From Agelas oroides (Eukaryota; Porifera; Demospongiae; Agelasida; Agelasidae), in NCBI GenBank assembly GCA_949130485.1, contig OX422183.1, forward strand, positions 15,187,812-15,251,811: 64,000 nucleotides of DNA. The letters run 5' to 3'. Position 1 is the first letter of the stretch, and every line of letters begins with the position of its first letter. This document shows, piece by piece, positions 31,501 to 58,386 of this stretch. Made by a program: the position numbers and the translations under genes. The notes below the pieces were generated by a model that saw only the letters and a list, made by a program, of their open reading frames with translations, had not been told where the DNA came from and made no database searches.

Positions 31501-34500
31501 ACTGCAACCAAGGTAACCACTCAGTGGTTAAAACAACCAATGATTTTTTGCAGTGTGAGAATAACCTGCAAAGTGTGAGATTCAAGGCATGAGACTCGGT
31601 AGGTCAGTAAAGTTACGATTTGTGGTCAACCTGCAGCAATTACATAATGACCTTCACTAACTACTCTCCAAAACAATTTTGGCAGCGACAACTCTCAATT
31701 TTGATAATTAGCATTTCTTCACTACTGTACAATAACACTGTGTTTTCATATTCACAGATGTGAATGCCAAGTGTGCTTGTAAGCTTCATGGTCCTGGAAC
31801 ACCCTTACTTCAGATGATGGTCCACTGCCTTAGCAAAGATGAGTGTGACAAGTTCAGTGCCACCATGCTAGAGTACTTCATTAAAGAAGAAAGAGCAAAA
31901 CTTGGTGGGGAGATAGCCACTCAACACATTGGTCTGCAGAAGGAAAGAGTGACATATGGCATGCTCGACCTGCTTCTATCGATGAAGAGAATAGATTGTG
32001 CAAAAGTGCTAGTTCAAGAAGGAGTAGACCCAATTAATGGGGGCTGTCCTGGTGGTGAAAAGTTTGATGTGGTGCCAATGTTTCAAGAATATCGTGACCA
32101 CGGTACCAATGAATTCATTTGCTGGGCATTCAATGAGTATATCCCCCAACACCCTGAGATTGACCTCAAGAAATTTGCTCGGCGAATCATCCACTCCATC
32201 ATCAACATGAAATTTGAAAAGTCCGCTTTTTGGAAACCTGTTAGAAGAGCCCCAGCACATGCTGTTCTCACATCTCGTCACAAGAAGGCAATTGAACACT
32301 TGGTACAATGTGCCAACGATGATTTCAGTCTGGATCTGCTTGCTGAGCGAAGTTCCACCGGCAAGACAGCACTTCATGTTGCTGCTGAGGACAACGATGT
32401 TAAATCAGTACAACTTCTCCTGCAACTGTAAGCATCTCTCATGGAAATGTGCAGTGCTTAGCTGTATTAGCCTCATTCCTAGAATGTCTGGGAACAAGGC
32501 TAAATGTACATGTTTGTAAGTAAGTGCACAGATATGAGCATTTTTTGTAGCAGTGCATCTGTCATGTTTAATTAATAAAGGCCGGGATTTAATGCATTTC
32601 TGAGATGTGTATTTCAACAAAAGGGAAATTGTGGATTGAAATGAATGAGTGCATAGCTAGTTTATGGAAGAAGAGATCTGAGTATAGCCTTGTTCCCTGG
32701 TCCCAATGGCGGTTCTAAGACACTATTACTGGGGGGCTAAAGTAACAGGTGGAGTGTGAGTAAGACCGCGCGTAAGCGCGCTCCACCTAGGGGGTCTGGG
32801 GGCATGCCCCCCCCCCCCCCCCCAGAACATTTTTTAGATTCTAGAGATGGGTTCTAGTGCAATCTGAGTCAGTTAGAGCTTTCATGCCTGCCAGTCTGAT
32901 AGTGATCCCGTAGACTATTCTTGAGATATCGACGTTTTAGGCCAACTTCTGGTTGACGAAAATGACGACAACAACGAAATTTGTATCATCCTAGCATATA
33001 CCAGGGGGTGGGGCAGAGAAAGTTTTGGGGGGCTCCAGCCCCTCCCAGCCCCCCCATAAAACCGCCAATGCCTGGTCCTCCCCAGGTTTTGTCACATACT
33101 GTATGAAACACAAGGCACGTGGATTCAAGATTTGATCGTGTGTGCCCATGACATATTGTGCATGGTTTTGATGATTGAAGTAATGCCCATACAGTCTGAC
33201 TGCAAATAGGCCAGCATTATAACTGCTAGACAATTAGAGTTCTAAATGTTGTTGAGACCTGTAGATCAGTTGGAACTCAGAGCACATTCACTAGATGGCA
33301 AGGACTCCACGCTTGATCCCAAGTGTTAAAAGTTCACAGCAACAAATTGAGAAAATTTTCCCCTATGCAGTAACCATGTTGGAACACACTCTACAAACCA
33401 AAAAGCAAGCTATTTACATGGGTTACTAGTTCTACATTTACTCTCATGCTTTTATAGTGGAGCTGACACACGAGCCGCCGACAACTCTGACATGAACCCC
33501 TTCATGATGGCAATAGAGAAAGGTCATTTGGAGGTGGTGAAGGCCATGATAATCAAGGACCCCGACCTTGTGACAATGCAGATGGGATCTGGGTTAACGG
33601 TGATTCACTGGGTTCTGGAGAAGAGCCATCGCAGTGCTTTTTTCAAGGTATACTCATTATTTATGTGCATGTTTATTTACCAACCTTGACTGTGTGAGTC
33701 CCCATTATTTTTCACAATTGTCACTGCATAATTTTCCACACTGCTAACTATAGTATATCAATCTGTTTGCACTGGAGTGCAGTGACAATTAGTTGTATCA
33801 AACTGCCATATAGCTGATGAATATTGCAATATAAATTTGAGTATGATTGTGTGTTATATTGTTTCTGTTCACTCTTGTCAAGTTGAATTGTAGTCTGAAC
33901 TGAAAAAATTTAATATCCAGTCAAATTTCTCTTTCTCTCCCCCCATCCCAACTGCTGGTAACAGACTAGCAGGAATCTGTGCTGCTACCCTCTGTATTCT
34001 AGATCTGTGAGTAGAATGGCTTGTCTAGACAATCACTACCTATGTACAGTAGGTGTTAATGCTCCAGCTGTTCCTCCGAATCGTCTCTCATAACTGTCTT
34101 CTGAATCGCTCAATAGCTAGTGACTGCATAACTAGCCTCTTAACCTCATTCCTCTTTCTATGCCTGGAAAAGAGCCTGGGTATGAAGCTATGCATGAACA
34201 TGTTGCCATATTAGGAGGAATGGCTATGGCCGCACCACACTTCAACCCCCCCCCCCCCCTCCCCACAGGCTACAGGCATGCTACGTATGGGGTCTTTTTT
34301 TTTTTAGCCAAAAAAAGATGATTTATGTACGTTGAAATACTGTGTATTAACACCCCCCGAGATATCTGCAGCAATTCAATTGGACAGCAGCTCACTATGT
34401 TCCGCTGTAATTACAGTAATCCAGACTAAGCAAGCCGGTCATTGTTAAACTCCCTCCACCTACTGTGATATTAATATTGCAACATTTGAACACATGAGTG

Positions 34501-37500
34501 TGGGATTGTATCATGATAATTTTAATAATTAAACTCCTTGAACTGTATATCCTCCATTAGATTTGATTTTGCGTAACATAGATGGTAAACCCTACAAAGG
34601 CCAGTACAGCATCACTGGGCTCCTTGCAGATACAAGCAATGGCAAAAATTGGCGAACATATAACACTGTAATTCGAAACTGTGTAGCTTGTCATGAAAAA
34701 GGAGCTGTCATTTTAACTAACTGCTCGTTCTCTGAGTTTCAGTATTCACTGTAGATAAGAAAATTGTCTTCATTAAATAGATTTGCTAATGTGGCAGACA
34801 AGAAGAACTAAACAAAGAAAAAATGACTGTGTTTTATTTTGATGTTTTTGTCTGGCTATGTGCTTGATGATACAGGTGAGTAGTGAATGGTACAAAGAAA
34901 TATTCATTTTCCATTCTAAACATCATTAATTATTCACTCACCTACTTCACAACTGCATTGCAAAGGAGTAAATGATCATTGACAGAATACTTCAGTACTA
35001 GTCTCACAGCCAGATGAGTTTGGAGTCTGGCCAAAAAGACAGGTACCCCAAAAATAAGGGCACCTATTTATTATAACAACTACATCATAGTTGTGAGCAC
35101 CTAGCTCCCTTTTACCACGCAAAAAGTATGATTGGGTGGTATGTTTCACTAGTTTTATACCTCCAGAGTCAAGTAAACTAGGAACACAAGCTAAAGACTA
35201 ACATAATATATCTAAAGCTTCTCACCAAAGACCTTTCAAAATTACATTGTATAGTTCCATTCCAAGCACTATAATTTAGTGGGTGAGGGGTTGGTTGATT
35301 GGCAACATTCCCTCTTGTTCTTGGAATGCATTGAATGTGAGCCAAGAAATAGCAAGGAGAGAAACTATTGGCCTAAAGCATATCAAATCTACGTTCATAC
35401 TATTGTACACTGGCATGTTGTTTCATGTGTTTTATTGTCTAAAAAGCTGTTGTTCACGAGTTTTACTATCATCTGACATTCACAGTGTTGCCTCAGGGAT
35501 AAAGAAAATTCAAGGATTCTTCTCACTGCTAAGGACTCTCAAGGAAACAGAATTGCACACCTGGCAGCTGCTTCAGGAAATACTGAAGTGTTTGAGGTAT
35601 CTAATATGGCTATATCTGTAAGCTAGTTATATAGAAATTGCTTATGCAATGATGTTGTGATACCATGTTATTGATAAATCAGTTGCATTAGACCTAGGAT
35701 GCTTTGCACAAGTTGCCATCTCAATTCATCTAAACTCTTTTCCAAGTTTTTAGTAACCCTGATAATGGTGCATTAAATCTCTTAAAGCTGAGCTCTGATA
35801 TAGCTTGGATTGGTCTTGTGGCTATTGTACCTCCTATATTACTAATAATACGATAATCCCAGATATCACAGCAATCCAGTGTGCTACATACGTATGTACG
35901 TATACTGGTATCATTCTACTATAAACTAAGCTTCTATATAATGTGATTTGTGAGTATGGGGAACACCCAAGCTAATTCACTCAACTTCATGTGGAATGTA
36001 ATAACTAGTAATAATCCTACTCATAGCTGTGGTTATCAATAGCTGGAAACTGGCAGAATTATATGTATGAGTCGTATGGATTAAGACTTCAATTTAATAT
36101 CGTGTACTGTAAAGATTATGAAACATCAGCTTCTTCATGCAATATGAGATTTGCAATTAACAGCCATTCCCTTGTGCTATCATTATAGCTGTACTCAAAA
36201 TTATGCTATAGATATTCTACAGTAAGGAGTTTGCAGAGGCTGTTTTCTCTCATCAAAACTTTGAAGGCAAGACTCCACTTGAACTGGCAGTTGAGAAAGG
36301 ACATGTCAAGTGAGAGACAAGACTATGTTTGATGTATTGGTTGTTTGTAATTACTGATCTTCCTGCATGCACACCAGCATACTCAAGACACTTCAAACCT
36401 GTGTTGATGAAAGAAGAAAAGGCCAAAGACAACAGCGTCAGCTGAAAACAGAATGGTGGGACAAAATGGTCCCTTGTTTCCTCTACGCTTCCTCATGTGG
36501 TTCATTGGATGCTGTCAAATATTTTATTGACAGTGGGAAAGAGCCTGACATCAGGTATATTTTAAAGCAGCATGTACATGCATTATGCTTCATCTCAAAA
36601 CAAGGAATCAAGTGTCTTTGATAAATCCACTAACTTGCCCAATTGTATTATACATGCACAAAAACTGTTCAGTCCAGTCAATTGCTTTCCAGCCTATAAC
36701 TGTTCAGTTTGAGTGCAGTTCAGCAATATTAGACACAACCGATAGAGGAAGGTCCCAGCTAAGTTTGTTCCATGGATGGGGTTAGACTGAGTGACGGACT
36801 TACATACCTATAGATATGTATAGGTTCATGTATAGGCACAATGCTAGTATACGTAGGTTCACCAAAAAATTATAGGTTGATCTGCCTATCAGCTGGGTAA
36901 CAGGTACAAGCTCGCTTTTTTAGCTATGTTATAGGCGGCTAATTCTGAGAACACACTCTTGAATACTCATTTGTGTGTACTTTCCATCTCCGTAGAGTGT
37001 ATTACTTGCCTTCATACAATCTTCACTGTCTTTTTATTTTTGTACATGGGCACTCCAGTGATGATGATGGCAAAACCCCTCTCCTGTGTGCTGCTAAATC
37101 TGGTCATGACAAGGTAGTGAGTGGCCTACCTACTCACATTTGAGAAAGTTCGAACTGAGCTGAGAAAGCTTCCAGAGAAAGTGGGGAGTGCAAGTGTAAG
37201 CTATGTACAGCCATTTTTAAACTTATGTTACAAATGCCGGTTTGCCGGTTTAGCCTCGTTCCCAGGCTCGTCCACGCACGAGCCTGGGAACAAGGCTAAT
37301 GCCAGTTTAGCCAGATTCACAAGCAGTCTTGACTTTAGGATGTAGTAGGTGTGACAGGAGTATTGTTATATTATTACTGATCATCTGCAGGAATCCCCGC
37401 TTCTGATCGCCGCTCAAAATGGGCACACTAGGTGTGTCATGCTTCTACTGCAAAAAGGAGGCAATGTACTCCAGAGGGACTACAAGGGCAGAAACTGTCT

Positions 37501-40500
37501 GATGCTTGCCATTCAATATCACCATAGGTATGGGGACTCTTTTGACATGATTATATCACTGCATGTGGAAACCTTTTAAGTGCATCCAACAACTATATAT
37601 GTATTGAGATACCGTATTTCCTTGATTTCTTCCCACCCTTGAATTAATCCCGCATGCACGTGCTCGCTTGAGCTAAAGAAAATTAATCCCGCCCTCGAAC
37701 AGTTCCCGCACGGTTCACAGACATGCTCATTGCTGGCAACGATGACGACTTGGACAGCTCAGATTGCTTGTCTGTACTCACGCACTGTACTGCACTGTAC
37801 GTACCTAGTATTTGTGCTGTACAAAGACGTCAGCCATGTTCATTTCGATGGCACACACGCGATCGGATCGCACGCCGGACTAGGCTGAAGTTAATTGAAC
37901 CCGACCACATTTTGTTCCCGCCCTCATATTGTACCTGCTGGTAAGTACGGTCTGAAATTAATGGTACCCGTGGGAAGTAACCAAGGAAATACGCTATATA
38001 AGCATACAAAAACTATTGTATATAGCAGTAGCTACAAAAGTGTATGTGATATGTAGATGACTTGGTTGTTCTGGCTCCTTCATCAGATTTCGGCTATTAT
38101 TGAAGTTTAATCCCTCCATACTTCTCCTGTTACCAATCTTGCACTGCTTACTAGCTTTTATGGCCAGCAACTCTCCTTTATGACATGGACCCTTAGAGGA
38201 TTGATTTTAGAAACCCTCCCATCATGTTGATCACTTTCTTCATTAATCATATAGGTATTTAAAGTATGTATTGTAAGGCTATAATTATACCAACTGTGCA
38301 GATTTATCCCAAATTGCATGGCTATCGACCAATCAAATGCGGATTTCACTTTTTGCACGGCTCAGCTGTGCAAAAAGTGAAATCTGCATCTGATTGTTCA
38401 ATAGTAGTACCACAGGCGCCTGGATAGACCTAGCAACGGCATTGTAAACAATTCAACCGCGAAAGAAAACAATGGCAGAAGGTTGTATTAGCTGCTCTCC
38501 TTGTGAATTGTCGACGAAAATCGCTACTCCTTCGAGTTCGAAGCTGAAATAAAATGGCCATTACCATGCCTTTGAATCTTTCGGGTCACCGGAGCCTGGC
38601 GGCGAATTGCTGGTAGGTGGCAGAAGGTTGTGCCTGTTCTCCTAGCCGATTGCTCTGTGTTTCTTGGTGAACGAGATCGAGTAGAGCATCATTCAGGTTT
38701 GCTATGCCGCTTCACATGCTTTGTGGCCTGGTACCTGCGCTGAATACGAGGCTATACGCTTTGTGGATCAAACGGTCATTTGCCACGCCTTCTACTCTTC
38801 CCACTGCACTAGCGCTAACTAGTCATTCCGCCCTCCTCTCGTACTCGCTGGAAAGTTGTTTCAGTTCGTTTTCTCATGCAGTAGTGCATGTTACTATCAC
38901 TGTCAAAAGTAAAAGTGTAATAGGTGAAGAAACAAAGAGAACCTATATGATTAATTTGATACCATGACTAGCAGTGCAATTTGGGATTAATTACACTCGT
39001 AAGGTTAGTAATTTCACTTGGCTTCGCCTCGTGAAATTACAAACCTTACTTGTGCAATTAATCCCAAATTGCACTGCTAGCCATGGTATTACATATACAA
39101 AATATTCTTTGTTTAGTATCAAATTGCATGACATGGAAACACATGGTATAGGTTGGGTTGTGGACGTTCTATGGATTGAAGTACTGTGTCTAGTGCTGAT
39201 TTATGAATCTAGCCACACCCACTCTAACAAGCTTTTACTAGTCATTGCTTTCAGCAAGTGAACACACATCTAGAATGAAAAATGTCAGAAAGGGGCCCTT
39301 GCAAGGTAAGCAGGAGAATTCCCAAAGCCCATTTGTGCAATTGAGAAGAGAAATGGCGCGCTCAGGATCAATCCAGGCTTTCTATAGTCAAGCATATAAA
39401 ACTACATACATGACGTGCTTTTACTGTTCAGATCCCACCCACATGTTTGCCCTTGTCTCACCCTTTCTGCTGGCACAAATCTAATCTCCAGAATACAACA
39501 ATTCAAAAGTGACATCATAAAGCTGAAAACTGACATCAAAAGAAGTCATTTGGATAAGGGTTTGTAAAGCTCCAAGCCATGGCACTATACTTGTTCAAAA
39601 GTGTACTGATGTCATGCACATGTGCCTGATAATAATCATACATAACCAGTTTAGTTGTTGCACATGTGGTTATCCACAAGTACTGAGCGAGCACCACATA
39701 ATGAAGTACTACTGATGATTGTCAAGCTAGCCTAGTTGAGCTCGTAAACCAGCATGCATAACACAGAATTTGTTGTGCATTACAGTTATGCATGACACAG
39801 TCAATACAGCCAACTCTAAGTTAGTTACCCACTCTGACTGCATATTATATACCTTATCTTTTCCAGAGCTACTGCACTGGCGATTCTTTCTGGCAAGGAT
39901 GGCATGAAAGCACTGAAAACAGACAAGAGTCCTCTGGGTACTAGTAAGCAAGATGTTACTCCTCTGCAAGAGTCAGTCAAAAGAAACCAATCTCAACTGC
40001 AATCAAGCAAAGAGGACACGACTCCTACTCCTCTGCAAGAGTCAGTCAAAAGAAACCAATCTCAACTGCAATCAAGCAAAGAGGACACGACTCCTACTCC
40101 TCTGCAAGAGTCAGTCAAAAGAAACCAATCTCAACTGCAATCAAGCAAAGAGGACACGACTCCTACTCCTCTGCAAGAGTCAGTCAAAAGAAACCAATCT
40201 CAACTGCAATCAAGCAAAGAGGACACGACTCCTACTCCTCTGCAAGAGTTGGTCAAAAGAAACCAATCTCAACTGCAATCAAGCAGAAAGGACAAGACTC
40301 CTACTCCTCTGCAACTGTTGGTCAAAGAAATGCCAGGTGAGACAGTGCCTCATTCCCAGATCTACATTCCTCCATATAATTATGCATTTCCAATGTGTTC
40401 TGGTACATGTACATGTAGTGCTTAGATGCTTTTTTGTAGATTAAGGCAAATTTTAACATACTTTGATACTGTAGCGGGTTGAAAACAAATTCACATAGAT

Positions 40501-43500
40501 TTAAACAACGAACTTAATGTTGAAAGCTGTATGAAGTCCAGCAATGGGCAAGTCTTCAATGTTGATCTATTTACACATACATGTAAACAAATATCAGTCT
40601 CATAATGAGAGTACATACACCTGTTATTGGCAATAATCTGGAGCAATACTTATGTTATAGACCTTGCAGAGTATGTGCTGAACAAATGTGTTATTCAAGC
40701 TGGAGGTTACAACCTTGATCTTTTGGAAGACCAAATCAATGATGACCATGAAAATCACATTCTTTCATTGATGGTAAGCTCTTAGAATAGCACAGTGAAA
40801 GTTGCATAAAATTAGGCTTACTGTGGATAGGTTATTGGCTCTAGATTGGAAAATTTCTGTTGTTAAAATAAATATTTTCATTTATTTTACATGCATGTAA
40901 GGAAACATTACACAATGGGCACAGAACTTTGAGTCTTCCATGTACCTATGTATATTGTATGATTGCCTTTCTAACGACTCTACAGTGGATGGTACCACCA
41001 AAGGTAAATGCCCGAGTACATTTTCGACAGCCAAAGCTACAAAGTCAGTGATACCCATCACTCTTGGCACATGCTGAGAGGCTGCTGTCATAACCAAGTG
41101 CTGGTGAACAGTTACTTTGGTATGTACTGTGGATGCTTTATGCAGACTAAAGGCCTTGAGATCCAGCCCGAAAATTGAAAAGTGTCATGGATATATACTG
41201 TCTATTTTCTGCCATTATGCCAGAAATTTAGTAGCTCAGTGGTAAGTGCATCTGACAGAAATTCTCCAATGAGCCAAAAAGAATGTAAAAAGGTCTTTTG
41301 ACTCTCCTTCACAAAAAGTGTATTTAACTGACACAGTGTCCCCAGTGGGTCTGACTATAGACTATGAGAATTATCACTATTTTACACTTCAGCAGCTCAA
41401 TTTAATGCCACATGTACACACAGTGCTTTCTCAAGCAGAAATTAACTTACATATTTCAACACTATTACACTTCATTATCATTTTCAATTGCCTAATTGTT
41501 AAATTTCAGATTGAGCATAAGCCAGCACTTCTAGAGCACCGACTGGTAAAGAAATACTTCTTCCAAAAGTTTTGGCTAACAGCTTTCCCACTGCTACTAC
41601 TCAACCTGCTGTTCTACTTCACTCTCCTGGTTACCCTCAACACCTTTGCTTTGTTGATACCCAGGCCTGGATCGGATAACTGTAAGAGATGATCAATCGT
41701 GGGTGTTTATTGATAATAATGTGATTCATGGCATATGTGTATTTTTTTTTGTTTTTTTTTGTTTGGGGAAGGCTTTAGAATATGTTTCCTCAGCTGTGAA
41801 TGAGCACAAGTTTGATGGTATGAGGTACAAATTCAGGAAAATGAACTCAGCACTTTCCTGATGGAGAGAATTTCCCAGTTGATCGACCCTTATCAGAGTT
41901 TAGACTGGGTGACTACCAGGTGTTGCCATTCAATACTATACCTGTGTAGTATAATGGAGGGTTGGTGGTTACCCTGTGGTCATAGCTTAGTGATCAGAGC
42001 ACTGGCAGCTGATGCCAGGGGGTCTGGGTTCAATTCCCAGGGACTACCAGCTTTTCACTTTCCCCCTCATATGTTTTGAGTATGTGTTCATTCTTTATTG
42101 CAGGCTCTAGTTTTGAGTGCCAAGGTGAGCTCTTGTACAGTACCTATCTTGTCATTGAATTCTTTAAGAATATCATAGTGGTGTGCTGACCAATATACTC
42201 AAACATCAAAATCAGCTTAGTTAGACAACAAATACACATTCTCATAATATATTAGTTTAAAAAATCACATGTAGCAATTACTCAAAGATTCTACTTGGAA
42301 GCAAGCTATCTGAACACACTTCACCTGTCATTAGATATGTGCTATATGTACTTACTACAGTTTGTGAAAGTGAAGCATGCTCAGATGTGGTCAACACAAA
42401 AAGACAATTACTTCACAATTCCAAAGAACTACTATATGCTTTAATCTGCCTGAAAAGTAGAAATTCTGGATTTCCCTTGAAATGTAACTACTAATATCAT
42501 GGTGTATGGTAGTACGTCATATATTGGGATGGCCCGAAGAAAATTGAGGCCGCATAAGTGCACAAATGACACACTCAAAATGTCTGCGTTAGATTAGTCA
42601 ACGGCCTCTATCAGTCATTATCCGTTAACTTCGCGGGAAAGCATCGCTGAAGTACCAGACCGGCAAGTTGCTAAAACGGGAAAATCATCTATCTTCTGAC
42701 TTTCTTTCTTCTCTCTGTGTAAGCCAGGCTAGCACAATAACAGCTAAAGCTATTACAAGGATTCAAACACGAAAAAAACAACATAAATCACTGGGTATTG
42801 CACTCACCACCTATTGTTCTCGAAGAACTCGAACTAGTTGGCGGTTCTCAGGTAGCCGCATGCTTATGCTTGCCGCTATACGACATTTTGTTAGCTTATA
42901 ATATTATTCATAGCAACCACGCCCCCAGAAGCTCAACCGAGGATGTGCTTAGCTAGCTTATGTGTGATAAGAAGGCAGCAGCTGACACAGCAGTATGTGA
43001 AGCCTGCAACAGCCCCAAGGTCAGACTTGAAGACTGCACTTGAAAGTGGGATGGAACCGTCAAAAACCAACCACACTAGATGGAAATGACACCACATTAC
43101 TTTCACACCATCCCTACATCTTGTGCCATTTTTCCAACTCTCTACATGCACTTTGGCCTATTCACACCCACTAAAAGAATGCATAACTACACACCAACAA
43201 GACACTTAGCCCTGCTCACTCCACAGCCTAACCCATATGTGCCGTGTTCAACAGCAACAAAAGTTCACAACATAACTGACACTCCAACATGCCACACAGA
43301 CTCAGCACCGCTCATGCACTGCTCATGCACTCCACAGCTTCTGCATACAAGACAGAACACATCTGCCATGCTCAGTAGTGATTAAGTTGCAGCCACCCAC
43401 AACATGACTTCTCTATGCACATCAACATGCACTACACACTCATACCACCCCACTGCCTTCCACAACCCTCCTATGTGCACAAATAACGAACACAAGGCAT

Positions 43501-46500
43501 ATAATTATGTTATAGTCTAAGGATTTCATGAGTTAAATTGTGTTTTGTCAACAGAAGTATTTCTCACTGTCACAATTTTAGGTCTAGGTAAAGGTTATCG
43601 GAGATTTCTGGCTGCAGCAGACGATCTGCTGTATTTACTGTCCGCTATTGGATTTCTGGTGGAGTTTGTGCAGCTTATGAACCGAGGGAAGAGGTACTTC
43701 TGGGATTTTGACAACTACCTTCAGTTGACTTTGTACACTTTGACCATCCTCTTCATTGATGACTTCGACCATGAGTGCTGGTGCTCCACCGCTTGGCAGT
43801 GGCAGATAGGAGCCTTTGCAGTGTTCTTCTCCTGGCTCAACTTCATCTTCGTCCTCAAATACATGCCTTATACTGCGGTCCCAATCAACATGTTTCTTAG
43901 CATCTGTGTTGCATTCTTAAGGATGATTTTTCTACCAATAGTGCTGATACTGGCCTTTGGTATACCCTTCTACATGGTCTTTGTGAAAGTGAGTTGTCAA
44001 TAAGCAGGCAAACTTTAAACCATTCATTAACACTACATAAAGCCTCATTCCCATGTTCTCATGTGGGCGAAGAAAAGCAAGGCCTGGTACAATCTGTTTG
44101 CACGTGTGCCAGTTTGTCTTTTGCTGAACTGCTGTCTGTGCAGTATCAATTTCTCTTGGTAACCTATACATACCTACTGTAAAATTGCGATGAAATGCAG
44201 TTTGCAAGGCCACACTGCAGAATTATGATTCCTGTGAGCAAACAATACTTTTTTAGAAAAAATTTTTTAACAAATTTATTGTCCTGGCAAATAAATATAT
44301 ATTTTTTGTATAAAAAACAAACAAACAATATATATATATGAATAAACTTATAGAAAAGTGTCAGTGTCCAATTGTCCCCAGTACTGATGCTGCGTTTATT
44401 ATTTATATCCACCCATGTATGAGAGCTTGGGGAGAAGGCTACACTATATAGATGATACTCTCGTCTATATGTCAGAACTACTGTTTCAATACAGTTTACA
44501 ACAAATGCAACAAAATTGGTAATGTACATAGGAAGATGTCAGTTCAAATGGTGATAGAAGATGATCTGATGTTGAATGGAAAGAAAGGACTGATAGTTCC
44601 ATGTGCCTGTGCTCAGAAGTATTATGAAACCACTAAGCTAGATAACCAGGTTTAAAAACCATACATGACATTAACAGAAGATTCACCAAGTTTTGTACAT
44701 AATTACACTGAATACCATCATTTAGATATTCCGGAAGTCCCTACAGGGCTTTTAAGAGCATACATGCAGGAGTTAAAACCTTTTAACTACTAGTGACAAC
44801 TATAGCAACTTGGGTCACATGTTATCAGTTAGCGCAATCCATTTTGAACAGAGGTTCTGTGCTAACCAAAAGGGCGAAACAGGAGGAGGTGGGTGGGTGT
44901 CATGTGCTGTCAACCTCCAGGTGACTGGGTGACAGTAGGGGCTCAATTTCTAGCACTGTAGGCAGCTTTTAGTCCGGAGGAGCATTCTCTGGTCAGAGAG
45001 CCTTGACTATTGAATGCTTGCTAATGAGTTGGTATAGTCAAAGTCGTGAACTTGCAAAGTACATCTGTGGGTTAAGTTTCCAGTACTAACTCCCAGCAGA
45101 AGAGATGGAAGGTGTCAATAGTCTAAAAAAGACCTCTAGAAAATCCAGTTCAGTACGTAAAGGAATAACAAATTTGGAGGCATTATACTCAAAGAGGGTA
45201 CAAGTCTCTATGGTATTATATGTGCATCCATTTTAGTTACAATGCCAATTATGTAGTACGTATGTTTGGACAATCATCCTTGGAAAGTAAAAAGTATAGG
45301 TATATAGACATTCTCTTTGTCTCTTCTACAGGAAGCAGAACACCTTCCTGCATTTCGATCTCCTTACCATGCTATAGCAAAGACCTTGCTTCAGCTAGCT
45401 GGGGAGTTCGATTTTGAAGCCACCTTCAACCAAGGCAGTGCTCTACTCTACACTCCAACTACCTATATCCTGTTCATCACCTTTCTGATAACCATGCCAA
45501 TATTATTCATCAACCTCTTGGTTAGTTGCTGCTGCTGTATACTGAATATATCTAGGTCACAGTTAGTCTGGCTGTGAAGTTCAATCTGTCAACAATGCAA
45601 GTATTTCGCTCAGTTTTGATGATGTACAGGACATTGTCTATCACCATGCAGAATGCTTTGGCTGTTGGAGAAACTCGGGAGATAATCGAGAAAGCAGAAC
45701 TTACTACACTTAAACTTCGGGTAACTAGCCCCTTAATTGTATTCAATTGTTTACGGTGTGGCCAACAATTGAGGTAAGAGGCTTGATGGTATTTTTTGGT
45801 CTCACAGGTGGAGTTGATCCTGGAACGAGAAAGGATGACTAAATGGGAAAAGAATTATTTTGTCAGCTTTATTATCAAAATAGATAACTGGTTGCAGGAA
45901 ATTATAAGTTTTATTCTGGACATGTTTGGAAACACCCATCATCCCTGTGATGCAAGCAAGTACAAGGAACGGAACCAGAACATCTACAGTACAGTGATGG
46001 TAGGTATAACAGTATTTTGCCAACAGACCATTCCCACTCCCTGTTTATCTCCTATAACCAGGTGTCAACATATTATTATATTTATAATCTCTATGCAGGC
46101 ACGGAATCCAGTGAGAGAAGATATCAGTAAATTGAAAGACGATGTTACTCACTTCAAACAGGAGTTGATGGTATGTATATTATATATAGGCATTGTCCAT
46201 AGCATGGTGTTTGCTATCCACCAAAAGACACCGTAGGCTGTTTAAACCACTCCCAGCCCACAGTCCTATCACCACACCAAAATCCCTCCTCATCACTCAT
46301 TCATAAGAAACAAGCTTTGGCAAAATCAATGTAACCATACTGCCCCAGACTTCCATATTTCAGATCTGAGTTCTTTGAACTATTAATTGTCAGATAAAAC
46401 CAACATCACCATCATGACATAACAATGATGTTAATTTTGTTGCCATGAATATACTGTATCTGAATAACACTGGACATTTTCAGGAAAGCTAATAAAATGA

Positions 46501-47710
46501 AAGGAAGATTGGTTAGCAATGCTGATGAAAAGCCTACCAGATGCTGCACAATATTGTTTTTGCAGTCCATTTCTCATAACCAAGCATGGTAAGCCATGCA
46601 CCAAGATCTTTCTCCTTGATCCATGCAAGTGCATTCAGTGGATATAGTGTAATATGAGCATACCACCTATCAACTATTGGTTACAGTTTGAAGATAGCAT
46701 TAGTTATAAGCATCTTCTGTAAACCGGCCGGATTCATATTCAGAAAAACATACCTAGGTTCAAAATAATTATTTGCCTATTCCTTGTATTGCATTCTGTA
46801 GTCTAAGAGCTTCATTGGCTTCTCTAGCACTATAATCCTAGGAAAATAAGCATTATGGATTTGACATCATGCTATAATTTACGCTGTGTCCAGAATGCCG
46901 GTAATGAACATTAAATTTCAGCAGCTATACACAGCAATTACAAGTTCCAATAAAGATATAACAAGACCAATCAATAGAGTGCTAAATGACCTACAAGATG
47001 GTATCCATTTTGTCAGCAAAATATTTAGTACAGGCACTGTAACTGGTATAATTCACTTTGCAGTTGCTTACAGTACTGGTACCGGTGCTGTAAGCAATAT
47101 AATGTACAGCCTAAAGAAAAGATTAGTCTTTTTAACACCCTATCTACTGATATTAGTTGTATTAAAAGTGGAGTTTGCTGTCAGGAGTTATCATGCCTTG
47201 AATTCAATTTTCATTACTGGTAGATACAACATATACTTTTATATCCACATTTGAAGTTAATTGCATTGCATTCAAGTTTGTGTTTAGTCTGATAGCCTAT
47301 AGCCTATACAATCATGCAGCAGTATTTCCCTTTCAAAAATGTTCTCATCAAGTATTATTTTCCAGTGGAATGTACTGTTGGCTAATCTTTATGCAGGCAC
47401 AGAATCCAACAAGAGAAGATCTTGCAAAATTAAAGGAAGATATCACACAGGAGATGATGGTACATGCAGTAGTCACACACTAATTTTCTTCCTAATCATG
47501 CAGATTTAATCAGTAACACTACTCTCACAACATATCTAAAAACACTCTTAGCACTTGTTATAAGCATTACTACTCTCTATGCAGGCACAGATTAAGACTA
47601 TGAGAGATGACTTTGCTAAGCTGAAGGAAGAGATGGCAATGGTAGTGCAATGTCTGTCACCAATGGGGGAAATTGACATTGCTGATTCTGATTATTTACA
47701 TGAAAATTGA
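22516..47710 (+). CDS. TRPA-like ankyrin cation channel, gene 2 (complete; one exon carries a 4-bp insertion)
   Basis: Tandem paralogue of gene 1. I read 24 exons: 22516-22557, 22790-22915, 24044-24106, 24360-24422, 24796-24912, 30291-30477, 31758-32427, 33458-33647, 35486-35596, 36212-36309, 36378-36554, 37059-37195, 37391-37527, 39867-40336, 40661-40773, 41510-41681, 42104-42124, 43582-43988, 45332-45520, 45652-45720, 45808-45999, 46099-46170, 47397-47459, 47585-47710. ATG 22516 has an in-frame TGA just upstream (22510-22512). Exons from 31758 on match gene 1 in order and phase. Exon 37059-37195 carries a 4-bp insertion that shifts frame to a TGA at 37141. A GTGAGT donor at 37117 would shorten that exon to 37059-37116 and keep frame, giving about 1,310 residues. 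The acceptor at 30291 is ambiguous (30318 and 30321 are also phase 0). The link across the 5.4-kb intron before it is inferred from phase and ankyrin content. Gene 2 is functional only if that donor is used or the insertion is an assembly error. Confidence 0.8.
22623..22688. repeat. AGCCTCGTTCCCAGGC hairpin MITE in gene 2 intron 1
   Basis: 66 bp: TAGCCTCGTTCCCAGGCCCC and its complement GGGGCCTGGGAACGAGGCTA enclose a short loop. Confidence 0.88.
24269..24284. repeat. Poly-G tract (16 G)
   Basis: G run in the intron just upstream of gene 2 exon 24360-24422. G-rich sequence on the sense strand could form a quadruplex. Confidence 0.95.
27187..27536. repeat. Composite direct/inverted repeat
   Basis: The inverted arms 27241-27298 and 27432-27489 (GAGGAGGTCGGACACGGTTG and complement) are themselves flanked by a direct repeat, AGTGATATCATCCAACCTGA ... 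GCCTGCGACTGGT, at 27187-27239 and 27495-27536. Confidence 0.8.
27841..27977. repeat. ~24-bp tandem repeat, about 5 copies
   Basis: Unit close to CATTTAAGCCATAAATGCCC plus CACC, with single-base variants between copies. Confidence 0.9.
28910..29400. repeat. 71-bp repeat units, three copies around a hairpin element
   Basis: AATGAGTCTTACAGTTCACA units start at 28910, 29262 and 29333; the last two are in tandem. Between the first and second lies an inverted-repeat segment (about 29000-29255) containing GGTACAA and GCCGCCACGG/CCGTGGCGGC hairpins, probably an insertion that split the array. Confidence 0.8.
29519..29642. repeat. CA-rich microsatellite
   Basis: Imperfect (CA)n with interspersed CATG. 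It gives spurious repetitive ORFs on both strands. Confidence 0.95.
29654..29914. mobile_element. 261-bp palindromic MITE, TGTGGCAGTCC family, copy 2
   Basis: Same length and ends as the copy at 7635-7895, flanked by TA. The central block is inverted relative to copy 1 but, the element being palindromic, this says nothing about orientation. Confidence 0.88.
31111..31555. mobile_element. Inverted-repeat element, CACTGCAA family, copy 2
   Basis: The ends CACTGCAAAAACGAATTGGT and ...CCAATGATTTTTTGCAGTG have arms including GTGGTTACCCTGGTTGCAG and its complement. It lies directly upstream of gene 2 exon 31758-32427 and is the unsplit counterpart of 20809-21916. Confidence 0.85.
32468..32502. repeat. 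Short AGCCTC palindrome
   Basis: TAGCCTCATTCCTAGA ... TCTGGGAACAAGGCTA, 35 bp, shortly after gene 2 exon 31758-32427. Confidence 0.7.
32704..33070. mobile_element. hAT-type MITE with 8-bp target duplication CCTGGTCC
   Basis: 367 bp with ends CAATGGCGGTT / AACCGCCAATG, flanked by exact CCTGGTCC at 32696-32703 and 33071-33078. The interior has a 17-C run beside GGGGTCTGGGGGCATG, a combination shared with the decayed repeat at 18650-18780. No transposase. Confidence 0.9.
34246..34259. repeat. Poly-C tract (14 C)
   Basis: C run in the gene 2 intron 33648-35485. The rest of that intron has no recognisable element apart from a weak AGCCTC-family fragment near 34135-34190. Confidence 0.9.
37117..37120 (+). 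other. 4-bp insertion in gene 2 ankyrin exon, frame break or new splice donor
   Basis: Gene 1 has ATT GTG GCC TAC CTC at this place; gene 2 has GTA GTG AGTG GCC TAC CTA, a tandem copy of AGTG. The unspliced exon therefore shifts frame and meets TGA at 37141-37143 (about residue 642), before any membrane segment. The same insertion makes the hexamer GTGAGT at 37117-37122, a consensus 5' splice site lying exactly in phase 0. Splicing from 37116 to the phase-0 exon at 37391 would drop 25 residues of one ankyrin repeat and keep the channel open. Sequencing or assembly error is the other simple explanation. Confidence 0.8.
37251..37298. repeat. AGCCTCGTTCCCAGGCTC hairpin
   Basis: 48-bp palindrome, TAGCCTCGTTCCCAGGCTCG ... 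CGAGCCTGGGAACAAGGCTA, 56 bp downstream of the frame-broken gene 2 exon. Confidence 0.88.
37611..37994. mobile_element. Inverted-repeat MITE (CCGTATTTCCTTG ends)
   Basis: The ends ACCGTATTTCCTTGATTTCT and the complement AGCGTATTTCCTTGGTTACT have inner ATTAATCCCGC / GGTACCCGTGGG motifs. No clear target duplication. The 73-codon ORF inside is incidental. Confidence 0.75.
38329..38399. repeat. Hairpin with ~30-bp arms
   Basis: AATCAAATGCGGATTTCACT... pairs with ...AAATCTGCATCTGATTG; the central 20-bp stem has one G/T mismatch. The adjacent TTATCCCAAATTGCATGGCT resembles the element at 38955. Confidence 0.85.
38955..39092. repeat. Palindromic MITE of ~138 bp
   Basis: ATACCATGACTAGCAGTGCA ... TGCACTGCTAGCCATGGTAT, with internal stems GTAAGGTTAGTAATTTCAC and complement around a TTGGCTTCGCC loop. 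Confidence 0.88.
39961..40318 (+). repeat. 69-bp coding minisatellite in gene 2 exon 39867-40336
   Basis: CCTCTGCAA recurs at 39961, 40030, 40099, 40168, 40237 and 40306, exactly 69 bp apart, giving five full 23-residue units plus a partial one. The unit contains PLQESVKRNQSQLQSSKED. All units stay in frame with the ankyrin exon, and the last two have begun to diverge (ELVKRNQ, SRKDKTP). Gene 1 has a single KTPLQLLVEEVP at this spot, so the array appears to have arisen in gene 2 by duplication around the KTPLQ ankyrin start. Near-identity of units suggests recent expansion and likely length polymorphism. Confidence 0.95.
41976..42048 (+). tRNA. tRNA-like sequence (Gln-CTG-like), probably a pseudogene or SINE head
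   Basis: 73 nt fold as a cloverleaf by eye: acceptor GTGGTCA/GGACTAC (6 of 7 pairs), D arm GCTT/GAGC, anticodon stem CTGGC/GCCAG with loop AGCTGAT, T arm CTGGG/CCCAG with TTCAATT. The B box GGTTCAATTCC matches consensus, and the A-box region TAGCTTAGTGATC is close to it. TTTT follows at 42052-42055. Position 33 is G instead of the near-universal U, so a working tRNA is doubtful. It lies in a gene 2 intron on the sense strand. Confidence 0.5.
42125..43581. other. Gene 2 intron without recognised element
   Basis: About 1.46 kb between the 21-bp microexon and the S2-S5 exon. It includes a CA-rich, low-complexity stretch (43080-43480) that yields chance ORFs. I see no inverted repeat or exon. 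Confidence 0.5.
44773..45168. mobile_element. piggyBac-type MITE, diverged copy 3
   Basis: It begins TTAAAACCTTTTAACTACTA and ends CAGTACGTAAAGGAATAA, with the same interior motifs as copies 1 and 2 (CAGTTAGCGCAATCCATTTT, GAGGTGGGTGG, CTAATGAGT). About 110 bp shorter than they are, without clean TTAA flanks, so old. Confidence 0.8.
45808..47710 (+). other. Gene 2 C-terminal tail exons
   Basis: Exon 45808-45999 (64 codons) begins VELILERERMTKW like gene 1 but is 31 codons shorter, has a different hydrophobic segment (FVSFIIKIDNWLQEIISFIL) and lacks the Cys cluster of gene 1. Three phase-0 cassette exons follow: 46099-46170 (VREDISKLKDDVTHFKQEL), 47397-47459 (TREDLAKLKEDITQEMM) and 47585-47710 (TMRDDFAKLKEEMAMVV plus an acidic end), with TGA at 47708. 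Each begins with Ala from GCA or GCN after a CAG acceptor, so the cassettes look like exon duplicates of one coiled-coil unit. Confidence 0.8.
46171..47396. other. Gene 2 intron between coiled-coil cassettes
   Basis: 1.2 kb. A 122-codon ORF at 46886-47254 (MSRMPVMNIKFQQ...) is open but has no splice sites fitting the flanking phase-0 exons and no recognisable domain. No repeat seen. Confidence 0.45.
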
Positions 47711-48531
47711 TTGCTGTTGTTGGCCTTTTTTTTTAATTGAACTAGTAGCTTTATTAACAGACTACAACATAGAAGGCTATAGTTTTATTAGCTGAACATA
47801 GAATATTAGTAGAGATTACATAGACAATCATATTATAGTTAGTACGATTTATTGTACACTAGCATGTTTTAGTGCTATGCAAGATTGCTGAGTTGTACAC
47901 TATAGCTGAATATTACACATCATTGCTGCTTAAAAGTTGAAATTTAGGACAAAATTATCATACTGCTATATTCAAGCAGACATTGGATTCCTATACCTTT
48001 GTGTGCGTAAATGATTGCCATCCTTAAGGTTTAGAGCTGTAAAAGTTGATGTCTAAGTTACAGCCCTCCCCATTCTCACTAGCTATATACTCCCCATCAC
48101 CTCCATGCATGCATATGTGTGAAGCACAGTATATTGATCCACTTAGAGACCAAACGGGTGCTTTGGTAAACCTACAAGTGGTGATTCAGAAGGTGTTTTA
48201 TTGAGTTAGGGCACAAGTCATCATGTTGAAACAACCCTGTTCCAACTACGCTAGGCTTTGACAATGTTGAGATCACTTTGGGATTGTTTATAGATGTTGT
48301 GTATAAGGTAAGTCTGAATATTTCTCAACTACTCCAACAATATAAAAAAACTGCATGCCAGTATTGCACACACAGGTAGGTGTAGGAGGCAGCTTTTACA
48401 AGAGCTTCTCTTATCCTTGTGTATGGCCCTAGCAGTTAACATTTCCTACTCAAGTCGGTTAAGGCCTAGAATAAGAATGCCCAAGAAAATTAAATTGGAA
48501 CATTACCTGACCTTCCATGTTCACTGTAAAA
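47711..48531. other. Downstream flank of gene 2
   Basis: 3' flanking sequence with a T9 tract at about 47738-47746. No canonical AATAAA near the stop and no repeat or ORF of note. Confidence 0.5.
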
Positions 48532-48900
48532 ATATTTGGGTCATCTCAGCTGCATGTCTGTTGTGTATGTGACATGTCATAAATTCCAATTTCCAATCAA
48601 AGTGTAGTTTAGAAGCTTCTCCCTTTGGATCTTCTTGAAGAAGGCCTATAAATCAGCATTTCTGGTGAGGTTTGATGTTTCTTTGATCCTACACAACTAC
48701 ACTTGGAGGGGTTCCTTGGTTGCATGGTTGTGGTAGAAATGCTAGGAATGTATCCAAATAGGTCTTCTGAAAAATTGATAAAGAAGCTCCTCATTGTACT
48801 TTCAAAAATCTTATTTGGTAGCATTTCTCAGATATGGTCACACTAGTGCAACTGAGACAACCAAAAAATAAGGTTGAAGTAACCCAAGTGTTTTTACAGT
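48532..48900. mobile_element. TA-type MITE, CACTGTAAAAA family, copy 2
   Basis: Ends CACTGTAAAAATATTTGGGT and ...AACCCAAGTGTTTTTACAGT, with the internal CATCTCAGCTGCATGTCTGT shared with copy 1 at 6549-7000 and its complement. Confidence 0.82.
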
Positions 48901-49289
48901 ATAAATGAGTAATGATTCGCTAACTACAATACTCAATGAACAATAATTATGTCTTAGACTTGGGAACTACCATGAAAGCTTACACCCTATCATTCATTAA
49001 ATGTCATACATGGTAACCTGACACTCAAGGGTTCACAAACTACCAAAATGCTTGTCAGGGGATACCAATGGCAAGAAAAATTACTCATCACTAACAATAT
49101 TTTGCAAGGAAGTTATGCTTAAATTTTTTCTGCTAAGTTTCCTTCCAAACAGTGTGGGTGCAAGTGAATTTTGTCTCTCATATTTGGTGTTTTTGAAATT
49201 GTGGTTCAATGCCATCACTGCTGTAACACTGGCAATTGCCTTCAATGCATTATCCATAACAATAATACTAGTGAGATGATTATCATCAT

Positions 49290-53931: not shown

Positions 53932-54420
53932 CGCCGTTTTCACACCCCCGTCGTGGACATTCACGTTCCCAAGCATGTCTACTGTTTGTGAAGCCCTACC
54001 TACCCATACTACAGTGTTGTCTGTCTCGGGTAGCCACTTTCCTCCCTCGTCGATTGGACTGCTCCATCGTGCATCAGAACAATACGGTGGTGAGCCTGTG
54101 TTGTCTGTGTGTACTACTAATATGACAAGAGCGTGCGTTAGCCATACTGTAAGCACAGTACCAAGCCCTCAGATAACGGACCGCTCTAGAGCTCACCTTA
54201 TCCACGATACAAGTGGAATTTGCACACCTATAGGACACTCCCAAGTGTACCTTCACGTGTGATGCTTCCCGAGATCCCAACCACGGTAGCGTCTCGTAGT
54301 CCACCCTCGACAGTTCGCGCGCGATGCAGCATGGTCGTCTACCCACACCGAGCATAACGCTCACGTGCAAGCTACCGACTATACCAGGCCTGCCCCAAGC
54401 TTATACCCATATACTCTAGC

Positions 54421-57400
54421 TTTGGATTCGATCCCGGTACCTCTGCTTGTGGGACCACTCCACTATCAGTCTCTAGTGTTGGAACACGCGTCCAGATAGC
54501 CGATCCCTCTTCGATGCCGAGCGTAGTTTCACACCCATACGTCACACCTGTTTGCCCGACACCTACTCCACCAGTGTTGCCCGCGGTAACACCTCCTGCT
54601 CCTGCCCGTACGGTTACTCCCTATGTCAAACTTCCGAAGTTGTCGATGAAGAAGTTTAATGGTGATTTGACGAAGTGGACGACATTTTGGGACTCATTTT
54701 CGTCCTCCATAGATGCTAATCCAGCCCTCTCTGGCATCGATAAATTTAACTAGTTGATCTCCCTGTTGGAGTCGACTGCGGCTGAAGCCATCGCTGGCCT
54801 GACCCCCACGGATGCTAACTATGAAGAGGCAGTGGCTACCTTGAAGAAGAAGTTTGGTAATCCTCAACTCATCATCAACCGCCACATGGAGGCACTATTG
54901 CATGTATCATCCCATCATGACATCAGGGGCCTACGGAAGTTACACGATTCAGTGGAAGCTCATATTCGAGGACTGAAGGCCTTGCGAGTCCCAGCCCAGA
55001 CCTACGGCAGATTATTGATATCTGTCCTTGGTAACAAGTTACCCCCTGAGCTCAGGCTCATTGTCACTCGTGAGATGACCGGGGAGGGTTGGGACCTTGA
55101 ACGACTAATGAGGATATTTGAGCGAGAGATTGATGCAAGAGAACGAGCCTTCGTTCCCACTAGCCAAGGTAATGTCCGCAGGCCACGAATACCTACCGCC
55201 TCTACACTATTAGCGAACAGCCCAGGATCTAACGGTAACCGAGTTGTCTGTGTCTACTGTGAGAAAGACCACGTGTCCAGTTCCTGCGACACCATAACTG
55301 ATGCAGCTGCCCGCAAGGAGTTGCTACGCAAGTTTGGTCGATGCTTTGTCTGTTTGAAGAGGCATCATCTTAGCAGAGATTGCCGCTCCAACTTCAATTG
55401 CAAGAAGTGTCGTGGACGTCACCACGTTTCAATTTGTGTGCGGACTACAAACAAGAGTGGTGGTAAAACCCCTACAACTCAGGGAGGTGGTGAGAAATCA
55501 CAAGGTGGTGACAATTCTGCTGTTCCTACGATCACATGTTACGTTGGCTCTCAAACCCCGATTCTACTTCAGACCGCAAAATTGCGATTAGTGAACCTGA
55601 ATGGTGAGAATCCCGCAACCTCAGCTAGAGCCATTCTGGATAGTGGCAGTCAGAGAACGTATGTCACGAGTCATGTCAGGGAGAGACTCATGTTGCCCGC
55701 TGTCGCTATGGAGTCCATTCAGATAAAGACCTTTGGCAATTCTGAGGGCTCCGACAAGACATGTGACGTTGTTAACTTTGGAGTGAGGATCAATAGCGGG
55801 GAAACGTTGGAGATAGCAGCCCTTGTAGTACCACTAATCAGCAGCCCATTGACCTCACAGCCAATCACCACTTCAGGAGAGTGTCATGAACACTTGCTGG
55901 GCTTGGAGCTGGCCGATTCTGCTGACAGCGACGACGTACTAGAGGTGGATGTGCTCATAGGATCAGATTGGTACTGGAGTCTGGTCACAGGAAGAGTGAT
56001 TCGAGGAAAGAGTGGGCCAACGGCTATTCACACCAAGGTCGGATGGATACTATCGGGGCCAGCGACCAATCCGACCACAGTTAACCTCACTCTTTCCTCC
56101 TTGATTCACGCTCTGAAGATTGACACTTTCAAGGTGGAACCAAGCCTGGATGATCAGCTGAAACAATTCTGGGAGCTAGAATCCCTCGGCATTCCCACAA
56201 ATGAGACTCCTGTATATGAGAAGTTTTTGCAACAGATCCGTTTTGACGGACACAGACACGAAGTGAGCTTACCGTGGAAGGAGCATCATCCATCACTCCC
56301 AGACCACTATGAGTTGTGTCACAAGAGGCTTGAAGCTCTTTTGAGGAAACTCAGGCAGACACCCACCCCATCTGCTTGAGGAGTATGACAGCATCATCCG
56401 TGACCAACAAGAAAAGGGGATTGTTGAGAAGGTCTCTCCATCAAGTACGACTACAGACAGAGCTAGTCCACTACCTTCCGCATCATGGCGTTGTCAGGCA
56501 GGACAAGACAACTTCTAAATTACGAATCGTCTATGATGCCTCGGCCCGATCCACTGGACCTTCTCTTAATGATTGCCTATACGCGGGACCAAAGTTTGGT
56601 CAGTCAATCTTTGACATCCTTGTGAGGTTTCGGCTCCAGCAAACAGCCCTTATCGGAGATATTGAGAAGGCCTTTCTGATGATATCAGTACAGGACAGAG
56701 ACAGGGATTCACTACGTTTCCTGTGGACGACTGACCTCAACTCAGAGAAGATTGAACCAACTCCATTCAGATTCACTCGAGTCGTCTTTGGCGTGTCCTC
56801 CAGTCCTTTCTTACTTAATGCGACTATCAATCACCACATAGAGACTTTCCGTGAGACTGACCCAGCGTTTGTCGACAAGTTCCTCTCATCCATCTACGTA
56901 GATGACCTTGTGTCAGGATGCAATGATGCACAGTCCACTTACGAGTTCTACCTGAAGTCGAGAGTCAGGCTTGCATCCGCTGCATGGCTTCAAGTTGAGG
57001 AAGTTTGTCACCAATTTGGAGGAATTGCGTTGTCGCATACTGGAGGATGAGGTGCCTGTGGAGAAGCAAACCGATTCTGAGGAGGACCAATCCTATGCAA
57101 AGACTTCACTCGGTGTGAAGATGAGCAATGATCCAGGAAGTACCAAGGTACTTGGTGTCCTTTGGGACGTTTTGCGAGACGAGCTGCTGTTTGACATTGG
57201 AGAGGTGACCAAAGCGATGGAACCTCTGGAACCCACTAAGAGGAACTTGGTTAGCATTACCGCTAAGTTCTTTGATCCCCTTGGTGTTGTGTGTCCTGTC
57301 ACGGTACTATTCAAGATGTTCTGTCAGCAGCTCTGTGAGGCCAAAGTGGGTTGGGATGACCCTCTATCAGATGAGTTCCTGGAGAGATGGAGCCAACTTC

Positions 57401-58386
57401 TCTCAATGCTCAAGGGGGCCAGACTCATCAGTATTACACGATGTGTCCACCAACTTGTGAATCCCAAGGTTGCACAGTTGGTCGGATTCTGTGATGCTTC
57501 GAGTAAGGCTTATGCAGCCGTTGTATACCTCAGACTCGAGGATGGAGACAGTGTGGACGTCAAGTTTCTGGCTGCAAGGACAAGAGTCGCACCGGTCCAT
57601 GGTATCACGATACCACGGCATGAATTGTTGTCAGCTCTCCTTCTGTCAAAACTGCTCACCAGCATTCGAGATGCATTGCATTCAGAACTGACTTTGGCTG
57701 ACCCTGTGTGCTCCACGGATTCAAAGGCATCTCTGTACTGGATCCAGGGAGTCCATCATGAATGGAAGCAGTTTGTGGAGAACCGTGTCACTGCCATCAG
57801 GAACCTAGTTCCTCGGGAGTTTTGGAGACACTGCCCCGGGAAGGAGAACCCACCCCACTGACATCCCCTCTAGGGGAATGAATGCATCTGCCCTATCTGA
57901 ATCCTCAATTTGGTTATCTGGCCCTGACTGGCTCTGGCACCGGACTGAAGTAGTGGCGTTATGAGATGTGTCTGAGATTGGAGTTCCAGGAGAGTGCCTA
58001 AGTGAAATGAAGCGCAAGGACCTCACATGTTCACTAGTTGCGACGGGAACTACCAAACCATCTGAGAGCATAAGCCAAGTTATTTGTCCAGAGCGTTACA
58101 GCTCCTCCAGTCGTCTCTTCAGAGTCACAGCCTTGTATTCAGATTCATAGCACGGCTTCGGAAATCGTCCCACTTGAGTGATCCAACAAACCCAGAAGTC
58201 TCAACAGAAGAGATCAACCAAGCAAGGTTGAGATGGATTCGGGATATGCAGACTCATATGACTGAGGACAGGAACTTTCCCACCTGGAAGCGCCAGTTTG
58301 GCCTTTTTCAAGACGAACAAGGCTTGTGGAGATGTGGAGGCAGAATGTCTCACTCCTCATTGCCCCCTGACAAATCCTTTTTATAG
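54421..58386 (+). pseudogene. Decayed BEL/Pao LTR-retroelement gag-pol
   Basis: Order of parts: Pro-rich gag start (from about 54421), gag core with KKFNGDLTKWTTFWDSF (about 54650), zinc-knuckle-like cysteines (VYCEKDH, CFVCLKRHHLSRDC, CKKCRGRHH; 55250-55440), aspartic protease ILDSGSQ (about 55633), reverse transcriptase with the YVDDL motif (about 56897), RNase H region GFCDASSKAYAAV (about 57487), and the start of the integrase zinc region (to 58386). It is broken by TAG at 54751, frame changes near 56365, 56440, 56985, 57850 and 58133, and TGA near 57962. The integrase core is missing, and I find no LTRs. BEL/Pao assignment follows from the DUF1759/DUF1758-type gag-protease order and the RT signature. 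Not functional. Confidence 0.88.

Follow-up and report, generated by a model that had tools for sequence, protein, structure and literature searches.

The question that this locus of the sponge Agelas oroides raises is whether a gene with a frameshift of its own is dead or is able to splice around the damage. The gene, denoted here gene 2, encodes a predicted TRPA1-like channel, and the four extra bases that disrupt one of its ankyrin exons also create a candidate splice donor in a phase that could restore the frame. The window analyzed here is the whole stretch of 64,000 nucleotides (C1:15187812-15251811, where C1 is contig OX422183.1), and the genome searched is the 259-Mb assembly consisting of 141 contigs. 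Positions of five digits are those of the window, and all features of gene 2 are on the plus strand.

Gene 2 and the channel gene array

Gene 2 is one copy within a tandem array of about 16 copies, accompanied by fragments. Exon h of gene 2, used as the query, yields 23 matches, of which 15 fall in the 15.08-15.69 Mb interval of C1 (this number includes gene 2 itself and a truncated second copy inside gene 3) and 8 weaker ones are located elsewhere. With exon m as the query, 16 places on C1 (14.93-15.69 Mb, gene 2 counted) reach 62% identity or more across a minimum of 60% of the query length; the search also detects fragments in the C1 region and distant relatives on other contigs, with 63 matches in total.

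The product of gene 2 is predicted to be a TRPA1-like channel that, similarly to the TRPA1 family, contains ankyrin repeats followed by channel segments. A search of the PDB started with an exon m profile that was built on five copies identifies TRPA1 as the best match (E = 1.1e-14); there are nine significant matches, all with E of 8.6e-10 or better, namely eight chains named TRPA1 and one maltose-binding-protein fusion with a channel, and the tenth match is insignificant. Among eight single exons of gene 2 submitted to Pfam, Ank models match the ankyrin repeats located before the channel part. The difference from the TRPA1 family is that the profile of the pore exon n retrieves nothing significant from the PDB (there is one TRPA1 match, with E of 1.6), and that Pfam detects no ion-channel domain in the eight exons submitted singly.

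The part of the gene that precedes the channel includes exon b (31758..32427, open, with ankyrin repeats at its end), exon c (33458..33647, open, ankyrin repeats), exon f (36378..36554), exon g (37059..37195, 137 bases), which carries the lesion and aligns with 13 other copies, and exon h (37391..37527), which encodes an ankyrin repeat and provides the acceptor for both the native and the bypass routes. These are followed by exon i (39867..40336, open, exon end approximate), exon j (40661..40773, open, shorter than its counterpart in gene 1 by in-frame differences), exon k (41510..41681, open), which encodes the first hydrophobic channel segment, S1 judging by its position, exon m (43569..43988, open, start approximate), with the TRPA1-like channel segments, and exon n (45326..45520, open, start approximate), where the pore and the last segment would be located by position. 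All the compared exons of gene 2 (a-f, h-k and m-q) are open, with splice sites that match those of the other copies where compared, and the alignments show that length differences in exons b, c, d, f, j, k, m and n are multiples of three. No second lesion was detected among these exons (the first exon and the C-terminal end lie outside the comparison).

A private four-base duplication in exon g

The lesion is a 4-base tandem duplication, AGTGAGTG (37116..37123), with one AGTG extra. A search with the DNA of exon g identifies 13 other places in the assembly, all on C1 (15.09-15.68 Mb), and none of the 13 copies has the extra bases, which are thus private to gene 2; two of these copies (g5 and the one in L007) are 99.8% identical over 2606 bases, so that the number of independent comparisons is about 12. 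In 11 of the 13 matches, the query span is 4 bases longer than the subject span, and in the other two, which are longer matches, the difference is 7 bases; when only the excess inside exon g is counted, it is 4 in all 13 copies. The frame of exon g is shifted, as the earlier note on this DNA had it, and the shifted frame runs into a premature TGA (37141..37143), 52 bases before the end of the exon. The duplication itself probably arose by a slippage-type mechanism. A wrong exon model was considered as the source of the extra bases and rejected, given that the frame, the acceptor and the donor all align with the 13 copies.

The new candidate donor and its competitors

The duplication creates the hexamer GTGAGT (37117..37122), a candidate donor with which the exon would end at 37116, exactly in phase 0, so that this claim of the earlier note is also confirmed; GTGAGT is absent from the equivalent place in 13 of 13 aligned copies. 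The native donor of exon g, GTAAGC (37196..37201), is intact and lies 79 bases downstream of the new one; at the homologous position, assigned by eye, a GT is present in all 13 other copies. A second in-phase candidate, GTAGTG (37114..37119, in the context AAG/GTAGTG, where the slash marks the exon end), begins 3 bases upstream of the new donor and is independent of the duplication; in this case, the exon would end at 37113.

These sites were scored with a profile of 97 donors from 12 exon positions of the family; the copies are related to each other, and the donor positions were set by eye from aligned exon ends, so GT is present in all 97 by construction. Expressed as percentiles of leave-one-exon-out profile scores among the 97 family donors, the new donor is at the 39th (5.49 bits; 38 of the 97 score no better), the native donor at the 65th (6.9 bits, slightly flattered by its membership in the profile), and the GT at 37114 at the 3rd (-0.48 bits). 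The U1 duplex energies are -5.2 kcal/mol for 37117, -5.3 for 37196 and -6.3 for 37114, with a family median of -5.1, so that the two measures disagree on 37114, which is poor by profile and the best of the three by U1 pairing. The end of exon m reads GAA/GTGAGT or AAA/GTGAGT in 6 of 6 copies, which suggests that GTGAGT after A at position -1 is accepted in this family and, accordingly, that the missing G at -1 is no bar to the use of the new donor.

The earlier note considered a lesion that builds its own bypass unusual. On the plus strand (250 kb), one GT per 239 bases scores no worse than the new donor. Among 8149 distinct 4-base tandem duplications possible in 46 family exon copies (exons b-h and m, excluding gene 2's own exon g), 475 (5.8%) make a new donor that equals or surpasses that of gene 2, 185 (2.3%) make such a donor in the rescuing phase, and 69 (0.85%) make a rescuing-phase donor with at most 90 bases lost; some in-phase donor, old or new, is available for 2657 (33%). 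The donor-creating coincidence is mild, and "unusual" is an overstatement in view of the chance of about 2% per duplication, the existence of other routes and the parallels from rice (PMC8893660).

Indel-induced frame-restoring splicing is a kind of event known from the rice CRISPR study of Jia et al. 2022 (PMC8893660). Most of the loci edited in that study are reported to produce a frame-restoring isoform, with 118 of 157 junctions in 24 genes undetected in the wild type by RT-PCR-seq; among NBS-LRR gene pairs with natural differences, 17 of 35 are reported to escape a stop through altered splicing. The likeness is that an indel whose length is not a multiple of three creates or favours a junction by which the indel is spliced out and the frame recovered; at the corresponding points, the DNA of gene 2 contains such an indel and a candidate frame-restoring site that is absent without it. 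Unlike the rice junctions, which were seen in RNA, that of gene 2 is read from the donor sequence alone; furthermore, the indel of gene 2 is natural, is located in a TRPA-like array and, by its sequence, creates the donor itself. No report on this locus, or on a comparable lesion in a TRPA array, was found in a literature search with partial coverage, and this result counts for little.

What the bypass product would lack

Joining 37116 to 37391 leaves the reading frame open, with the correct phase at the entry to exon i and 25 codons removed. The number of residues that had been claimed for the deletion is thus correct by codon count, whereas their assignment to one ankyrin repeat holds only in part. 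By position, exon g encodes the first helix of an ankyrin repeat followed by the VAYLL helix and a linker. The 25 lost residues start with VAYLL, a motif found in 14 of 14 copies that, judging by position and the ankyrin motif, would correspond to the second helix of the repeat. Only the first 6-7 or so of the lost residues would belong to the second helix, the remainder being a variable linker. In the bypass product, the helix-1 motifs would be about 15 residues apart instead of about 40 (manual count), and the deletion is neither a whole-repeat nor a loop deletion.

Rescue of a working channel by this route is doubtful because the lost residues include VAYLL, which is kept in all copies. The Pfam model Ank_2 gives 65.4 bits for the intact stretch of gene 1 and 65.2 bits for the bypass product of gene 2; given that these scores fail to separate the products, they provide no evidence against folding, and the doubt rests on conservation and repeat geometry. 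Of the proposal that the bypass rescues the channel, the channel stands, as a TRPA1-like product, but the rescue is not supported in the form proposed, considering that the native donor scores higher and that VAYLL is lost.

It is unlikely, although this is the alternative that survives best, that gene 2 employs its own GTGAGT as the main donor, loses the 25 residues and encodes a functional channel whose ankyrin stack is shortened. The phase of the donor at 37117, the open frame through to the start of exon i, a profile score that lies among those of real family donors, the use of GTGAGT after A elsewhere in the family and the lack of a second lesion in the exons compared are all compatible with this possibility, but the intact and better-scoring native donor 79 bases downstream, the loss of VAYLL and the shortened distance between the helix-1 motifs argue against it. 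So do the rice data, where frame-restoring isoforms are common and seldom fully rescuing, with nearly full rescue by such a route estimated for under 1% to 3-4% of genes (PMC8893660).

Selection and the age of the lesion

The 5' exons were compared over 563 aligned codons in six copies (gene 2, gene 3, gA, gB, g1 and g5). The Ka/Ks values are 0.30-0.37 for gene 2 versus the others and 0.16-0.42 among the others. The private changes of gene 2 in this part, 23 nonsynonymous to 16 synonymous, are below the neutral expectation (p = 0.006, with site counts that include no transition bias); the corresponding ratio is 27.5:34.5 for gA, gB, g1 and g5 pooled (Fisher p = 0.16 versus gene 2, entered as 27:35) and 23.3:12.7 for gene 3, which is outside the four-copy pool. 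At residues where the other five copies all agree, 34 of 282 are changed in gene 2 and 39 of 287 in gene 3, and the values for gA, gB, g1 and g5 are 6-20 of 254-268. These residue counts may point to some relaxation on both gene 2 and gene 3.

The 3' comparison covers six exons (j, k, m, n, o and q, with i and p left out). Gene 2 and gene 3 differ there by 12 synonymous and 10 nonsynonymous changes, with Ks of 0.054 and Ka/Ks of 0.24 (p = 0.001 versus neutrality), so that, after the duplication of the 3' half, the channel part was constrained in at least one of the two genes. When polarised, the nonsynonymous to synonymous changes are 5:3 in gene 2 and 4:5 in gene 3, with 5 changes unpolarised; the gene 2 share gives p = 0.39, the counts being too small to tell. 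The substitution patterns indicate that gene 2 has been constrained for much of its history, and the lesion would be recent relative to the long branch of this gene.

Gene 3, and damaged copies in the array

Across its 3' half (from 37418), gene 2 aligns with the corresponding half of gene 3 in introns as well as exons, and the aligned blocks are 80-94% identical. From 39100 on, 22 of the 29 segments of 250 bases are 87-99% identical and the remaining 7 are 39-81% identical; the segments before 39100 are misaligned. The shared 3' half is a recent duplication (exon Ks 0.054), which left little time for decay, so that the open downstream exons, considered as a proof of function, are a weak one.

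The match extends over 37418-49270 in the window and C1:15272059-15281273 (L023, L024), with the junction inside exon h. Gene 3 retains its own exon h and, about 140 bases downstream, a truncated second copy of this exon. Thus, gene 3 looks like a chimera into which the 3' half of gene 2, or of a sister of gene 2, was copied.

Several siblings carry lesions of their own. The copy gB (C1:15124454-15124627, L013) has a 7-base deletion in exon k, the first channel-segment exon; exon m contains a stop in the copies at 15583964, 15296006 and 15556608; and for the copy g5 (15316784), no exon m or n was found within 13 kb downstream. Disabled copies are common in this array, and a frameshifted copy is to be expected there.

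In other respects, gB is close to gA (Ka/Ks of 0.16 and Ks of 0.215 in the 5' exons). The nearly identical stretches that include g5 and its counterpart (C1:15314923-15317528 and C1:15576007-15578612, L007) are 261 kb apart; either a segmental duplication took place very recently, or the assembly retains a haplotype in duplicate.

Status of gene 2

Young duplicated pseudogenes are a known feature of tandem gene arrays, and gene 2 is probably of this kind, that is, a young null allele or a young pseudogene, perhaps with a minor in-frame isoform. Like such pseudogenes, gene 2 has a single frameshift and siblings with lesions of their own; it differs from them in that no second lesion was found and in possessing a candidate bypass donor. 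A disabling change relative to intact relatives is present, and no further disabling changes were found in the compared exons. The private lesion, the intact and better-scoring native donor, the loss of VAYLL from the bypass product, the frequency of lesions in the array and the possible relaxation on gene 2 all favour this reading. Against it, a gene that is bypassed or polymorphic could likewise be intact except for one lesion, and the use of GTGAGT after A in the family, the 23:16 ratio below neutrality, the Ka/Ks of 0.24 and the lack of separation by Pfam point in the same direction. Contrary to the earlier note, the donor alone does not decide whether gene 2 is a pseudogene.

With respect to donor usage, decay, loss of function and the age of the lesion, we infer the following course of events. 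A slippage-type duplication of AGTG would have recently broken the frame of the next-to-last identified ankyrin exon. Most transcripts probably keep the native donor at 37196 and meet the TGA at 37141, in which case they are likely to be lost to nonsense-mediated decay or to yield an ankyrin-only stub. Judging by its sequence, GTGAGT can be a donor and may give rise to a minor isoform that lacks 25 residues, but, with one ankyrin helix gone, this isoform is unlikely to replace the channel.

A smaller chance still attaches to an assembly or sequencing error, or to one of two alleles, such that the extra bases are not fixed in the organism. Compatible with this explanation are the existence of a single assembly, the single genomic occurrence of the 22-base insertion context (with up to 2 mismatches allowed) and the absence of other damage in the compared parts of the gene. 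Prokaryote genome contigs, scanned for stray sequence from the organism, contained no relative and hence provided no second individual. However, a 4-base tandem duplication outside a homopolymer is atypical of long-read errors, and if the duplication were a heterozygous allele, the lesion would be real all the same.

Less probable again is a different frame-restoring route, namely the GT at 37114, the skipping of exons g and h with a direct join of exon f to exon i, or a short exitron in exon g (43 or 52 bases from 37117, restoring the frame): all five tested routes (two donors, the skipping of g and h, and two exitrons) are open and reach exon i in phase, and 37114 pairs best with U1 among the three main donors, but the same site is at the 3rd percentile by profile and the routes are read from genomic DNA only. 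Should one of these be the actual route, the new GTGAGT would be irrelevant, except for the exitrons that start at 37117. Skipping of exon g alone was rejected as a rescue, being out of frame.

It is very improbable that the duplication is fixed, that GTGAGT is the regular donor and that gene 2 is expressed as a TRPA-like channel with a shortened ankyrin stack near the channel; if this were so, one 4-base mutation would have both broken and re-made the gene. If, more generally, the bypass were seen in RNA, gene 2 would exemplify a natural frameshift with its own splice remedy and would call for caution in the designation of pseudogenes from a single frameshift; otherwise, the lesion is young and ordinary, in a channel array with fast turnover. 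With its private indel, competing new donor and many sibling controls, gene 2 is a clean natural test case.

Other features of the region

Coding exon i of gene 2 contains an expanded in-frame tandem repeat with a 69-base unit (39957-40314, 5.2 copies, 98% matches), located in the linker that precedes the channel. The corresponding region of gene 3 covers no more than 98 bases, roughly one and a half units. Downstream of gene 2, the window contains long open frames (54358-58386) with the appearance of a retroelement polyprotein, including putative zinc-knuckle and reverse-transcriptase-like stretches.
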